Origin: an uncultured Chthoniobacter sp. | Lineage (GTDB): Bacteria > Verrucomicrobiota > Verrucomicrobiia > Chthoniobacterales > Chthoniobacteraceae | NCBI GenBank assembly: GCA_903874975.1 | Contig: CAIQUL010000085.1 | Location: 1 to 32,311, forward strand | Direction of reading: 5' to 3' | DNA: 32,311 nucleotides | Translations under genes and position numbers: made by a program | Shown: in pieces, positions 7,510-31,044 of the stretch | Numbering within the stretch: the first letter of the stretch is position 1 | Layout of the letters: each line of letters opens with the position of its first letter | Notes under the pieces: generated by a model | The model's input: the letters and a program-made list of their open reading frames with translations, nothing else | Databases searched by the model: none | Told to the model about the DNA's origin: nothing

Positions 7510-8027
7510 GGTTGGGTGGCGTCCTCCGCGGGGTGCAGCGCGCGGCGGAGCAGCTCGCGCGCGGTGGTGAGCGTGTCGGCCAGGGTCTCGAGGTCCATTT
7601 TCAAAAGCTCGGCGATCTGCCCGATCGTGAAAAAATCGAGGTAGAAAATCGCCAGCGCGCTCCGCTCCGGCTCCGGCAGGGCGTGAAAGCGCTGGGCCAG
7701 CAGAAAGGCCTCGATCGGGAGCACGGCGGGCGCGGCCCCCGGGGGAGCGTCCGTCCGTAGCAGCCGCGGCGCGGCGGGGGGCGAGGATGCGTTGTTTTTC
7801 AGGCAGCGCTCGCGGATCGCTTGGACCAGCCACGCCTGCCGCCCCGTCTCCGTGCGGACCTGATCGAGATGCGCCTCCGCGGCGGCGAGAGTTTCCCCGA
7901 GCACCTGCTCCGCCGGCTTCGCGTGCCCGGTGAGGAGCAGCGCCAAGCGGTAGAGCTCGGCGAGGCCGGATGGGTGGGGCGGGGGAGAGGTTTGCAAGGC
8001 GCGCGACCATAGGCACGCGCCCCGCAC
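7506..8027 (-). CDS. ECF-like RNA polymerase sigma factor
   Basis: Up to 173 residues, with a GTG start at 8027; the start is uncertain because the first 20 residues look unstructured. Region 2-like sequence is [30 protein letters not shown] followed by [18 protein letters not shown]. Region 4 is [47 protein letters not shown], a typical sigma70 region 4 type 2 helix-turn-helix. It is followed without a gap by a membrane protein in the anti-sigma position and then a lipoprotein, so the set probably senses an envelope signal. No autoregulatory promoter was recognised. The gene is divergent from the phosphatase-RpiB-SHMT fusion. Confidence 0.85.
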
Positions 8028-21704: not shown

Positions 21705-21970
21705 GCGCAACGAAGCGGAGCTCACCCGACGCGCGCACCGACTGGAGAAAGAAGAGAAGCGCCTGGCCAAGGAAAACCTCGTCCTGCCGCTGCTCGTGCG
21801 CACACTCCAGCGCCTCACCGTGCGCTCGGTGAAGTTCATCCGCTGGTTGCGGGTGCAACTCTTTCTCCGGCCTCACCACGAGCCTGCCATCGCCGCCCTG
21901 CGCCAGTTATATGCGGTTTTGTAAGGGGAATTTTGGACACCGTTGTCTTTCTCCTATCTCCTAACTCCCG

Positions 21971-22018
21971 TTCTGACCGTTTCAGGTGCGGCGGGCGCGG
22001 AAGCAATTTCCTTGCAGT
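21971..22018 (+). repeat. 48-bp direct repeat, copy 1
   Basis: This block begins TTCTGACCGTTTCAGGTGCG and ends AAGCAATTTCCTTGCAGT. It matches 29608-29655 at 45 of 48 positions in the same orientation. It lies 19 bp beyond the stop of the DUF1592-type gene on the minus strand. The copies bracket 7.6 kb containing the DUF1552-DUF1592 operon and the cassette array. Confidence 0.95.
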
Positions 22019-26566: not shown

Positions 26567-26695
26567 GGCGAACGTTTGAGCGCAGGCACCCCTATCAGCG
26601 AGGGCGAGCGTTGAACGCGGGGTTGAGGTTGTAGCTACGAGAAATCATCGAAACTGGGCGGCTGGTAGGGGTTGCTCTGGCGCGGCTTGTTCGCC
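26567..26695 (-). other. attC-type recombination site, third
   Basis: 129 bp. On the minus strand it starts GGCGAACAAGCCGCGCCAG and ends GCGCTCAAACGTTCGCC. The left arm GCGCCAGAGCAACCCCTA pairs with the complement of TAGGGGTGCCTGCGC, leaving an extra C and an extra A in the left arm. The site begins 7 bp after the stop of the 116-residue cassette gene. Beyond it the sequence returns to host-like DNA. Confidence 0.8.
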
Positions 26696-26702
26696 TCTTC
26701 CG

Positions 26703-27053
26703 TTATGTAAAGTTCGAACTGACTTCTCTTGAGCACAGTCGCCTGCACAGATCAGTGAATACGATGCCGATAAAAATCATGGAGAGTCCGCCCACTATGG
26801 ACTTCGAGAAAACACCGACACCACCGACAATAAAAGCGATGGCACCCACTGCCGTTCCAAGGATGTTCATGATCCACGGGAACTTCGAAGAACCATAGAT
26901 CATCCACAGGCTCCATATCAACGCGCCGACGATCCCAGCAATGTGCCGAATCGGGGAGCCACCAATCAGACCAGCCAGGCCAAGTCCGTGGATCACAACG
27001 GACGTGTAAATGATACGGTATCCGACGTTCTTTAGAGGATCTGATGGGAACAT
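26703..27053 (-). CDS. Small membrane protein, cassette 3
   Basis: 116 residues from the ATG at 27053, 20 bp after the core of the preceding attC site. Three or four membrane helices are visible (IIYTSVVIHGLGLAGLIGG, IAGIVGALIWSLWMIYG, WIMNILGTAVGAIAFIVGGVGVF, SIVGGLSMIFIGIVFTDL), with a short basic C-terminus. No family is recognised. Single-gene cassettes for small membrane proteins of unknown function are common in integron arrays. It is probably transcribed from a promoter upstream of the array or read through from the earlier cassettes. Confidence 0.75.
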   Translation of the reverse strand: MFPSDPLKNVGYRIIYTSVVIHGLGLAGLIGGSPIRHIAGIVGALIWSLWMIYGSSKFPWIMNILGTAVGAIAFIVGGVGVFSKSIVGGLSMIFIGIVFTDLCRRLCSREVSSNFT

Positions 27054-27073
27054 ATGGACGGAGATATTTTCTT

Positions 27074-27168
27074 GGCGAACGATTGAGTGCTCCTACGGGC
27101 GTGATTGAAAGGAAAATGAATCGAAATTGGGATGCTTATGGCCCGTTAGGAGGCACGGCTTGTTCGCC
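27074..27168 (-). other. attC-type recombination site, second
   Basis: 95 bp, the shortest of the three. On the minus strand it starts GGCGAACAAGCCGTGCCTCC and ends GCACTCAATCGTTCGCC. The arm GTGCCTCCTAACGGGC pairs with the complement of GCCCGTAGGAGCAC, leaving an extra C and an extra A unpaired, as in the other two sites. It overlaps the last 11 codons of the 156-residue gene, so that gene's C-terminus is encoded by the recombination site. Confidence 0.85.
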
Positions 27169-27606
27169 TTCTTCGATCTTGAACACGGAATACTCCTCAA
27201 CAATGTCAGTAAACCTCTCTCGGTGCGCTGAACCCAGATCCAGACGTGCGAGGTTCCATCCTCCCTGTCCGATGGTGATCTCATACACTAGAGCTGTGGT
27301 CCCCTTGTGAGGTCCTGCTAAAACCAGAACGCGGTCGCCGGTCTTAAGTGGCGCTCCATTCAGCTTGCCGCAGATGGGTCTAATCCAAGGCCAGCAGGTG
27401 AACATTCCGAGGAAATATCCTAGCCCGGCCACTGCGGGCACTCCAATAAGCAGAGCCGCCACACCCTGCCAGTCAGTCGCGATACTGGCTAGCCTGACGC
27501 CATTCATCGGCACCGTGAGAAAGAATGATATTAGGGCAACTGCTCCGATAACCCACGAGACGACCACCGGACGAGCGCAGACTTGATGGTGGATGGCTGT
27601 CTTCAT
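27136..27606 (-). CDS. Membrane protein with KOW-like segment, cassette 2
   Basis: 156 residues from the ATG at 27606, 8 bp after the core GTTCGCC of the first attC site; a TTG in frame further upstream lies inside the attC site and is rejected. Two membrane helices (VSWVIGAVALISFFLTV and WQGVAALLIGVPAVAGLGYFLGM) precede a soluble part with a KOW-like motif, GDRVLVLAGPHKGTTALVYEI. KOW motifs usually bind RNA or protein in ribosomal and Nus factors, but this one is only motif-length and its role here is unknown. The last residues (GEQAVPPNGP) are encoded by the next attC site. Confidence 0.78.
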   Translation of the reverse strand: MKTAIHHQVCARPVVVSWVIGAVALISFFLTVPMNGVRLASIATDWQGVAALLIGVPAVAGLGYFLGMFTCWPWIRPICGKLNGAPLKTGDRVLVLAGPHKGTTALVYEITIGQGGWNLARLDLGSAHRERFTDIVEEYSVFKIEEGEQAVPPNGP

Positions 27607-27614
27607 GTTATTCT

Positions 27615-27741
27615 GGCGAACGTTCAAGCGCTGGCACCGCTGGGGCGGAGGTGAGCGTCGAAACGGGATGACGGGTTAAAGTTATGGAAGGCTTGGCCGA
27701 CAGAGCAGCCCCAGCGGTTGTCCAGGCGCGCCTTGTTCGCT
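27615..27741 (-). other. attC-type recombination site, first
   Basis: 127 bp. On the minus strand it starts AGCGAACAAGGCGCGCCTGG and ends GCGCTTGAACGTTCGCC. The arm GCGCCTGGACAACCGCTGGGGC pairs with the complement of GCCCCAGCGGTGCCAGCGC, leaving an extra C and an extra A in the left arm. It begins 31 bp after the stop of the 148-residue gene. Confidence 0.85.
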
Positions 27742-27772
27742 TTCTTTATACCGATGGCCATCTGTAGGGCGG

Positions 27773-28219
27773 TCATGGGAAGAACAACTCCTTGATAAGG
27801 ATGGCAACTACTCCGAGAAGTAGTCCTAAAACAATCTTTTTACCACCGGAAAGCTCGTGCTTCCACCAAGGCTTCTCGGCAAAGTTCGGCTGACTGTCCC
27901 AATCACTCTGGGTCCCCCAATCTGCCGGAGACGAAAAGGTCTCTCCCTCGTCACCAGTCACAACGCCACCAAAGTGAGGGGCGATAGACGCCATATACTC
28001 AATGATCCTCGGCCCTTTTGGATTCTTGGTGAACGCAGAGGCATCGCCGCTCGAATAATGCAAAGCAAGGGTGTCGTCCCCATCAAGAATGGCGGTGATG
28101 AAGTGTGGATCATCTTCAACAATCTTGAGTTCCGGTCGGCTCGCCACGAAGTCTCTCCACTCTTGCTTGGTGATGCCAGTGCTCGGTTCAGGTCTCTTGA
28201 GCGTGATGTGATATCCCAT
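27773..28219 (-). CDS. Unknown small protein with C-terminal membrane helix
   Basis: 148 residues from the ATG at 28219; an earlier in-frame start at 28354 would overlap the upstream gene by 94 bp and is rejected. The N-terminal part reads MGYHITLKRPEPSTGITKQEWRDFVASRPELKIVEDD, a pattern (MGYHI..R...ITxxEW) that I associate with a widespread family of small unknown proteins. One hydrophobic helix ends the protein (KIVLGLLLGVVAILIKELFF), so it is probably tail-anchored. It is the third gene of the first cassette and is directly followed by attC. No function can be given. Confidence 0.75.
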   Translation of the reverse strand: MGYHITLKRPEPSTGITKQEWRDFVASRPELKIVEDDPHFITAILDGDDTLALHYSSGDASAFTKNPKGPRIIEYMASIAPHFGGVVTGDEGETFSSPADWGTQSDWDSQPNFAEKPWWKHELSGGKKIVLGLLLGVVAILIKELFFP

Positions 28220-28260
28220 GGCAAGCGGCTTTGTTTGTTGGGCGTGCGGTTGGTATACGG

Positions 28261-28782
28261 CTACCAGAACTTCCACCAAGGTGATGGTGAATTTACGCGG
28301 TAAAAAATGTGACCATTTTTCAATTTCACAGGTTTGCTGTTTTTTTTGATCCACCGCACCACTTGGCTATACCAACCGGCAAACTGCTCGGCGTCGTAAG
28401 AGTAGGGTGCGGATTGGAATGAGTAAGGGCCGCCTGGAGTCAGGAATTTGCTCCAGAATAAGCGACCGGTATGGCTGTCATAGCAGCCTGCTGTGAAAGG
28501 ATCGCGGCAATACTCAATGACCGGCGCACTGTCGATGTCCTGAATGTAAAATGACCCGTTACTGGCAACGGCTATCTCTGGAGTCCAAGGGTAGGCGGTG
28601 TTCCACAGGAAGAATCTTCTTTCACCGGAACGGCGTGGAGGCAACCGCTCCAAGCACAGAAACTCCGGCTTGGTCGCATGGGAGACAAAAATTTTGATTT
28701 CGGCCTTGCTGCGGAGAAACTGCAGGAACAATTCCTCGGCCGGCTCACTCATCCCGACTGCTATTTGGCGACCCCGTCCCAT
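28261..28782 (-). CDS. Unknown soluble protein, cassette 1
   Basis: Up to 173 residues from the ATG at 28782; a later ATG at 28752 (MSEPAEELFLQFLRSKAEIKI) is the more natural start. Readable segments are EYCRDPFTAGCYDSHTGRLFW, DAEQFAGWYSQVVRWIKKNSKPV, and the ending PSPWWKFW. It looks like a soluble protein of about 163 residues with conserved aromatic positions. I do not recognise a family. It lies 14 bp after the 181-residue gene and 41 bp before the next. That 41-bp gap contains GCCCAAC (28243-28237, minus strand), which could be half of an attC site. Confidence 0.7.
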   Translation of the reverse strand: MGRGRQIAVGMSEPAEELFLQFLRSKAEIKIFVSHATKPEFLCLERLPPRRSGERRFFLWNTAYPWTPEIAVASNGSFYIQDIDSAPVIEYCRDPFTAGCYDSHTGRLFWSKFLTPGGPYSFQSAPYSYDAEQFAGWYSQVVRWIKKNSKPVKLKNGHIFYRVNSPSPWWKFW

Positions 28783-28796
28783 AGGTGTGCAAGAAA

Positions 28797-29342
28797 TTAG
28801 CGGCGGCGCAATTTGCCAGCGTCAGGCACGTATTGAGCGATTCTGTTGATTCCCACTGTTCGGCAGGTGTCCAGAACTATTTCCTCGATCTGGCTCTGGA
28901 TTTCGAGCTCCGAAAAGAATGAGAGTGCCACCGAATCATGGTAGGGCGCTGGTCCACCAGCCGCATTCCAGAACTCTGTTTGCTCGAGAAGCATGAGTGT
29001 GCCGTCACGTGTGAAGACAATGCGGTTAGGAAATTCGTCATTCTTTTCTAGCTTGGCATCGCTACAGTTCATGAGATCAGCCCACGGTCGTTCGTGTTCG
29101 AACTCGTCACGCCAGCGCCTGAGAAGTCCGCATCGCTTTCGCGTCCAATACTCGGCAGAAATAACATCCGCCCTCACTAGCGAGGCGAGCCTTGGCACTG
29201 CAAGGCGAGCGAGAGTCCACGGCGCCACTGATCCTCCATCGCGCTCAATCCAAGTGAGGACGGAAATCTGAAACTTGTGGCCTGTTAGAGGCAAAGGAGT
29301 CCATTTGTGCGGCTCTTTTACAATCTGGATCAAATCATTCAT
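28797..29342 (-). CDS. Unknown soluble protein, first gene of the array
   Basis: 181 residues from the ATG at 29342, 6 bp after the attI-like core; two other ATGs nearby are in other frames. The sequence begins MNDLIQIVKEPHKWTPLPLTGHKFQISVLTWIERDGG and contains RKRCGLLRRWRDEFEHERPWADLMN and FTRDGTLMLLEQTEF. It has no membrane segment or signal. No family is recognised. As first gene after the attI-like site it is best placed for expression from the promoter at 29362-29389. Confidence 0.7.
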   Translation of the reverse strand: MNDLIQIVKEPHKWTPLPLTGHKFQISVLTWIERDGGSVAPWTLARLAVPRLASLVRADVISAEYWTRKRCGLLRRWRDEFEHERPWADLMNCSDAKLEKNDEFPNRIVFTRDGTLMLLEQTEFWNAAGGPAPYHDSVALSFFSELEIQSQIEEIVLDTCRTVGINRIAQYVPDAGKLRRR

Positions 29343-29348
29343 TCATTG

Positions 29349-29355
29349 TGCGAAC
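29349..29355 (-). other. attI-like core site
   Basis: The minus strand reads GTTCGCA here, directly before the first cassette gene, and the same GTTCGC core ends each attC site. No L' arm or second half is present upstream as an attC would need, so this fits the simple site attI. The preceding sequence (GATAAACTCCCTGTTCGCA, 29367-29349) includes an inverted GATAAAC that could be the second, weaker binding site. Confidence 0.55.
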
Positions 29356-29361
29356 AGGGAG

Positions 29362-29389
29362 TTTATCGACAGATTTGTGTGTTTGTCAG
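29362..29389 (-). promoter_or_regulatory. Promoter candidate for the cassette array
   Basis: On the minus strand CTGACA (29389-29384), 16 bp, GATAAA (29367-29362). Transcription would start at about the attI-like core and run into the first cassette. 29390-29607 has no gene and no other clear signal. Confidence 0.4.
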
Positions 29390-29607
29390 CAGCTTTATAT
29401 CCGACAAAAATGTTGGAATATCCCGGGGTTGGAGGTCCATGGTGGTTGCTTTACGCGCGTAATGAGCGGGAGCCGACATTCTTGTTGGGATTTGCTCAAA
29501 TGCGCGCACAAAAGTGATGTACGAATATTCCAAATGCCGGGCCAACGGTTGAACAGCGAATTATTCGACCATCATGATGAGTTGGTCAGTCCCCTCACTC
29601 AGCCGGG

Positions 29608-29655
29608 TTCTGACCGTTTCCGGTGCGGCGGGCGCGAAAGCAATTTCCTGGCAGT
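29608..29655 (+). repeat. 48-bp direct repeat, copy 2
   Basis: Same 48-bp block as 21971-22018 with three differences. It lies 6 bp beyond the stop of the DUF1501 gene on the minus strand. Just outside it GGTCAG (29584-29589) and CTGACC (29610-29615) could pair as a loose hairpin. Confidence 0.95.
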
Positions 29656-29661
29656 CGGCGT

Positions 29662-31044
29662 TCACGCCAGGACGGCTTTCACCACTTGGCCGTGGACGTC
29701 GGTAAGGCGAAAGTCCCGGCCGGCGTGGCGGTAGGTGAGGCGTTGGTGGTCGATGCCGAGCAGGTGAAGGATGGTGGCGTGCAGGTCGTGCACCGACACC
29801 GGGTTTTCCAAGGCCTTGAATCCGAACTCGTCGGTGGCGCCATAAATCGTCCCGCCCTTGATGCCGCCGCCGGCCATCCAGAGTGAAAAGCCCCATTGGT
29901 TGTGATCGCGCCCCGCGGTGGCGCCGCCGCCGGCGATGCCCAGTTCCACCGACGGCGTGCGGCCGAACTCGCCCGTGCAGAGCACCAGCGTTTGCTCGAG
30001 CAGACCGCGCTGCTCGAGATCCATGAGGAGCGCGGCCAGGCCGCGGTCGCACTGGTTGGCGACGGTGCGATGGGCGTTCTTGAGGTTGTTGTGGCTGTTC
30101 CAGGGCTGCTCCTTGCCGGGCCAGGTCTGGACGAAGCGCACGCCGCGCTCGACCAGCCGGCGGGCCATCAGCAACTGCCGGTTCTGCGGGCCGTCGCCAT
30201 ACATCTCCTGAATGTGCTTCGGTTCGCGGCTGATGTCGAAGGCGTCGGTGGCCTCGACCTGCATGCGGTAGGCCAGTTCGAAGGACTGGATGCGGGCCTC
30301 GATGGCCGCCTCGCCCTGGCGTTCGGCGAGGTGGCGGTCATTGAGCTGGCGCAACAACGAGAACTGCCGCGCCTGCGTGTCGTGGTCGAGATGAGCGTTG
30401 CGCAGGTGCGCGATGAACTGGCGCGGATCCTTCCGCGCCGTAGCCACCAGCGTGCCCTGGTAAACGCCGGGCAGGAAGGCGGAGCGCCAGTTGTTGGCGT
30501 CGCCCACCGGGAGCCCGCCGGGGCACAATGCGACGAAGCCCGGCAGATTCCGGTTCTCCGAACCCATGCCCCAGTTCAGCCACGAGCCGAGGCTCGGCCG
30601 CACCAGCCGCTGGTCGCCCGATTTCATCAGCATGAGCGACATCGCATGGCTGGGCAGCTCGGCTTGCATGGACCGGATCACGGCCAGCTTGTCGGCACAC
30701 CGGGACAGGTGGGGAAACAGGTCGCTGATGGGAATGCCGCTCTGACCATGCTGCTTGAACTCGAAGGGCGACGGCAGCGCGACGCCGGTGCGGCGCTCGG
30801 TGAGGAGGTTTTCGTACGGCAGCTCCTGTCCGCCGCGCCGCGTGAGTTCCGGCTTGGGACCGAAGGTGTCCACCTGCGACATGCCGCCGTTGAGGAAGAC
30901 ATGGATCACGGACCGGGCCTTGCCGGGGAAATGGCTGCCGGCCGACGCCTCGCGGCTCATCAGGCCCGCCAGTGCCAGCGAGCCGATGCCCAGCCCGCTG
31001 CGCTGGAGAAACTGGCGGCGTGTGCAGGACAGGTGCTCGGTCAT
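29662..31044 (-). CDS. DUF1501 exported protein (TAT signal)
   Basis: 460 residues from the ATG at 31044; the frame extends 61 codons upstream over the end of the previous gene, which is rejected. The N-terminus has a twin-arginine signal (CTRRQFLQRSGLGIGSLALAGL). DUF1501 motifs: SVIHVFLNGGMSQVDTFGPKPEL, MQAELPSHAMSLMLMKSG, RPSLGSWLNWGMGSENRNLPGFV, LLEQTLVLCTGEFGRTPSVE, GRDHNQWGFSLWMAGGGIKGGTIYGATDEFG and HDLHATILHLLGIDHQRLTYRHAGRDFRLTDV. The family resembles sulfatases and alkaline phosphatases and is usually paired with a DUF1549/DUF1553 cytochrome protein, found 13 bp upstream here but truncated. Exported to the periplasm; reaction unknown. Confidence 0.93.
   Translation of the reverse strand: MTEHLSCTRRQFLQRSGLGIGSLALAGLMSREASAGSHFPGKARSVIHVFLNGGMSQVDTFGPKPELTRRGGQELPYENLLTERRTGVALPSPFEFKQHGQSGIPISDLFPHLSRCADKLAVIRSMQAELPSHAMSLMLMKSGDQRLVRPSLGSWLNWGMGSENRNLPGFVALCPGGLPVGDANNWRSAFLPGVYQGTLVATARKDPRQFIAHLRNAHLDHDTQARQFSLLRQLNDRHLAERQGEAAIEARIQSFELAYRMQVEATDAFDISREPKHIQEMYGDGPQNRQLLMARRLVERGVRFVQTWPGKEQPWNSHNNLKNAHRTVANQCDRGLAALLMDLEQRGLLEQTLVLCTGEFGRTPSVELGIAGGGATAGRDHNQWGFSLWMAGGGIKGGTIYGATDEFGFKALENPVSVHDLHATILHLLGIDHQRLTYRHAGRDFRLTDVHGQVVKAVLA

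Follow-up and report, generated by a model that had tools for sequence, protein, structure and literature searches.

The locus considered here raises the question of whether an integron recombination site can head a gene cassette array with no integrase gene beside it. The window, the whole stretch of 32,311 nucleotides that was analysed from an uncultured Chthoniobacter sp., carries the heptamer GTTCGCA on the minus strand (29355 to 29349), 6 bp ahead of the ATG of a gene for 181 amino acids (28797–29342). A preliminary description took this heptamer for an attI-like half-site with a promoter firing into the array, and supposed that an integrase gene had once stood on its other side. Sites of the attI type are generally taken to adjoin the integrase gene intI, as they do in archaea (PMC9668308), and outside class 1 integrons they are poorly characterised (PMC9024848). 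The crossover core of integrons has been given as G|TTRRRY (PMC12901181).

The heptamer alone is no rarer than chance, with 13 occurrences of GTTCGCM in the window against 17.9 expected. The partner half of an attC is indeed lacking upstream, as had been described. At 29355 there is neither an R″ nor a stem of the R″-L″...L′-R′ hairpin that defines an attC, the fold has a z of -0.2, and the attC model has only three hits in the window, all at the cassette ends described below. A weight matrix was built from eight attI sites that adjoin intI in relatives, and by likeness to such sites the window site ranked fourth of 683 GTT trinucleotides. A GTT at 29554 on the minus strand, 20 bp left of the module described next, ranked second of the 683, probably by chance.

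The sequence to the left of the heptamer is a repeated module of about 180–190 bp. In the window it spans 29353–29534 on the minus strand (104 bits with the profile R2), with the crossover G at 29355 and the left edge TTTGGAATATTC at 29534; the family alignment is about 190 bp long. A BLAST search with the upstream block (188 bp around the heptamer) returned a copy of 93% identity on contig C14 of G024, a MAG labelled Prosthecobacter debontii (Verrucomicrobiaceae), and copies of 85% and 82% on contigs C256 and C259 of the host's own genome, which thus holds three, the window copy (contig C85) included. These four closest copies are kept up to CTCCCTG|TT and are unrelated past that point, so that a conserved left side, a boundary between G and TT and varied cassettes at the right are directly observed. 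In the window core (29349–29355, minus strand) the G at 29355 comes from the module and TTCGCA from the first cassette; at the equivalent point the homologues carry GTTAGGC, GTTCGCC, GTTCTGT and others. The left edges of the four copies read TTTGGAATATTC, TTTGGAATATTC, TGGAATATTC and TAATATTC and agree within a few bases, and further left the sequences differ. A 19-mer scan of 85k genomes matched only G024 and two chance coding sequences, no module was found in viral contigs and plasmids, and Rfam matched the module to no RNA family at the six loci searched. A short plus-strand ORF from 29410 (MLEYPGVGG...) runs through the module, away from the attI; this putative frame is partly open in some copies and closed in C256.

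To the right of the crossover, an array of three cassettes lies on the minus strand. The first (27621–29354) is 1.7 kb long, carries ORFs at 28797–29342, 28261–28782 and 27773–28219 and has no further attC inside; with its length and its three ORFs, it probably represents fused cassettes. Its attC lies at 27615–27741, with R″/R′ and L″/L′ pairing. The second cassette (27080–27620; gene 27136–27606) has its attC at 27074–27168 (fold z -3.3), and the third (26573–27079; gene 26703–27053) is closed by the attC at 26567–26695, the end of the array. The scores of these sites with the attC model R1 (70.4, 67 and 60.5 bits, in that order) are not independent, since the model was built partly from them; their pairing is visible in separate folds. 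The attC at 27615–27741 is 93.5% identical to one at 7671–7797 of locus L053, where the cassette gene differs, and such near-identical sites on differing genes suggest, from their sequences, an exchange of attC between cassettes.

Correctly oriented attC cassettes follow the module at each of the four closest copies, with three attC sites in the window, two at C256, two at C259 (one weak) and one at G024. The start of the first cassette is complementary to the R″ of its own attC at C259 (TTCTGTC with GACAGAAC), at C256 (TTAGCCA with TGGCTAAC) and at G024 (TTCGCCC with GGGCGAAC). The second cassette of C256 starts with TTCTGCAG, paired with CCGCAGAAC. This complementarity is the mark of intact cassettes that, to judge from these pairings, were inserted at G|TT. 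In the window TTCGCAC matches at six of seven positions against AAGCGAAC. Pfam found no informative family among the cassette proteins except DUF6994 in C259. The rest of the host genome is free of further attC sites by pattern scan, which was relied upon because the whole-genome search with the attC model is lossy and missed two of the three sites in the window. Dispersed CALINs, clusters of attC sites without an integrase, have been reported in Xanthomonas (PMC12444791), and the window array counts as a CALIN, with three attC sites where at least two are required and no intI nearby. CALINs are defined by attC only; here the same attI module stands at the start of all three arrays found in the host genome.

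Within the module there are three inverted-repeat boxes of the form CCRACA-N4-TGTYGG, all on the minus strand: box 1 at 29473–29488 (CCAACAAGAATGTCGG, at -133, exact), box 2 at 29401–29416 (CCAACATTTTTGTCGG, at -61, exact) and box 3 at 29366–29381 (CACACAAATCTGTCGA, at -26, three mismatches). Exact boxes 1 and 2 are confined to the module within the 32-kb window and were found in none of 100 shuffles, an enrichment that is descriptive, as the pattern was derived from the window block and its homologues. Over the 37 module copies examined, there are 47 boxes at no more than two mismatches against 0.7 in shuffles. Of the 27 copies with a clear core, 21 have all three, placed at about -135, -62 and -26, when as many as four mismatches are allowed, a loose threshold. 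The position of box 3 is shared with palindromes in the intI-adjacent attI sites of G003 (a member of the host's genus) and G052, which carry them at -26 and about -54. Taken one at a time, attI sites do not exceed shuffled sequence in their number of palindromes (P 0.16–1.0).

The attI1 and attI2 sites have multiple integrase-binding sites to the left of the crossover, and the three boxes may be regarded as putative sites of this kind. Like those sites of class 1 and class 2 integrons, the module would be a double-stranded docking site with repeats left of G|TT and variable cassettes at the right. It differs from them in its sequence, in its three CCRACA-N4-TGTYGG boxes, in its position away from intI and in its several copies per genome.

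The promoter that had been placed in this block is not supported. The reversed GATAAAC (29366–29360, minus strand) and the CTGACA-16-GATAAA arrangement are present as letters, and the match to consensus is an ordinary one, with four promoter-like sites found against 2.3 expected. The supposed -10 hexamer, GATAAA, starts at the last base of box 3, and relatives have a GTGATC-type sequence there. The hexamers of a sigma-70 promoter (Pc) are therefore neither above chance nor kept among the copies. A TATAAAG after box 2 is kept in most copies, without a good -35.

The module belongs to a wider family across the order. The profile R2, made from five copies, has matches in 11 of 213 genomes, some of them weak: nine in G020, eight in G016, six in G031, four in G009, three each in the host genome and G033, and one or two each in G029, G468, G024, G470 and G480. 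These counts come from the 19 best candidates per genome, the weakest near E 0.01 per genome. Among relatives, the diverged copies thus number as many as nine in one genome. A clear core is present in 27 of the 37 copies examined (GTTAGGC in 11, GTTCGCC in five), and the other ten are without a clear core of the GTTA or GTTC type. Most of the 37 sit in differing contexts. The next co-directional ORF begins 5–60 bp past the core in 23 copies, and an ORF crosses the core in five more. The attC model gave ten hits in 34 new loci, all downstream on the strand of the site, and in five of these loci (L139, L145, L146, L154 and L156) the attC lies at the end of the first gene or just after it; a first automatic search by complementarity, which was too strict, gave attC in seven of the 34. 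At many copies in the related genus no attC was detected downstream. Together with the ten copies lacking a clear core and the weak profile matches, this indicates that a good part of the family may be fossils.

The integrase was sought both beside the module and elsewhere. No intI and no intI remnant was found by tblastn at the loci of the 37 copies, and the host genome has no protein above the intI cut-off. As this genome is a draft MAG of 348 contigs and 96% completeness, an intI could be missing from the assembly. As candidates for IntI, three host tyrosine recombinases were considered and rejected: two resemble XerC/XerD, one sits at the end of a contig, and all three fall short of the cut-off. 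Three of four relatives in the same genus do carry intI. The preliminary description had proposed seeking this block beside an intact integrase gene in a relative; it is absent from every intI-bearing locus fetched, where the attI is of other sequence, and no integrase could be matched to the attI of the window. Some low-scoring integron-integrase-like proteins were seen in G009:C38 (L169), G012:C28 (L170), G018 and G035:C625 (L072), at about 260–280 bits against 415–485, and are perhaps a second lineage.

The neighbours named in that description are in place beyond the block, the 48-bp repeat at 29607–29655 and the end of the DUF1501 gene at 29662. The integrase said to have stood on that side finds no support: none was found at the 37 loci or in the host genome, and the four closest copies, whose left-hand neighbours differ, all begin on the left at almost the same position, with a fairly sharp boundary. 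The 48-bp repeat is itself dispersed, with a second intergenic copy in the window (21970–22018; that at 29607–29655 is likewise intergenic) and many more in the host genome and its relatives. With no intI adjoining, the site is best called attI-like in place and function rather than a complete integron platform.

Taken together, the recurring copies, the G|TT boundary, the differing first cassettes and the geometry of the boxes strongly support the attI reading. The window site is probably the attI of a small integrase-less array, a copy of a dispersed family of Verrucomicrobiaceae modules that would be served by an integrase in trans. Most likely it is, or formerly was, functional in this way. 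The module consists of three boxes, putative binding sites of the integrase, followed by the G|TT crossover. The enzyme may come from another replicon, a neighbouring strain, or an ancestral or unassembled gene, and would insert cassettes at G|TT beside box 3. Insertion at this point would leave the copies alike to the left of G|TT and different to the right of it. Since the copies, most of them at the head of one or a few cassettes, are scattered and none stands beside intI, it appears that the docking site has spread independently of its enzyme.

How it spread is a further question, and the leading idea, held tentatively and compatible with the attI reading, is that of an attI-bearing cassette. 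The module would have travelled in a cassette-like circle, been inserted by the integrase at secondary, attG-like sites and then gained cassettes. Functional attI-type cassettes and insertion at attG have been reported (PMC12901181). The left edge is G|T in three of the four closest copies, and the array of C259 ends in attC-G|T with a host stop codon directly after it. The left junction in the window is A|TTT, however, the edges vary by a few bases and the left edge has no partner attC. The genes flanking C256 and C259 led to no syntenic empty site, and no clean pair of orthologous loci bearing different cassettes was found. ΔattI-type cassettes likewise carry attI sequence away from intI and move it with cassettes, but in them it is a partial attI, standing in for the attC after a gene within an integron (PMC12901181), whereas here a complete module stands ahead of the cassettes at scattered chromosomal loci. 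Secondary attG sites also receive cassettes far from an integron platform (PMC12901181, PMC12444791); such sites are neither attC nor attI, and the cassettes described here differ in following a long shared sequence.

A MITE-like transposon that ends by chance in an attI is unlikely. Short length, dispersal, a fairly sharp left edge and internal inverted repeats would all suit such an element, but there is no conserved right end, since nearly every copy in the alignment loses its similarity to the others at G|TT. No terminal inverted repeats were seen at the two ends, and conservation is strongest on the attI side. Quite unlikely, too, are ordinary integrons in decay, each copy once complete and its left-hand intI deleted independently. 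Integrase loss is known to give rise to CALINs (PMC8618304) and intI does occur in the genus, but independent deletions sit poorly with left edges that fall within a few bases of one another in four contexts, with 37 loci free of intI remnants and with up to nine copies per genome while those attI sites that were found beside intI differ in sequence. A broken attC, in which the half-site would be the R′ remaining from an upstream cassette since lost, is very improbable: fused and truncated cassettes exist and only a single half-site is visible, but random deletion would not set the same conserved left side ahead of unrelated first cassettes.

The openly searchable literature yielded no account of attI modules that occur in several copies without an integrase, subscription papers lying outside the search. 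Such a family would give some CALINs an origin and would supply an attI model that can be searched for. It would also make testable whether a docking site can move and work apart from its integrase. It is conceivable, though still doubtful, that Verrucomicrobiaceae hold many stand-alone attI modules, mobile through the integron reaction itself, and hence a distributed integron rather than a single platform. If this is true, one integrase acting in trans could supply many chromosomal sites with cassettes simultaneously.
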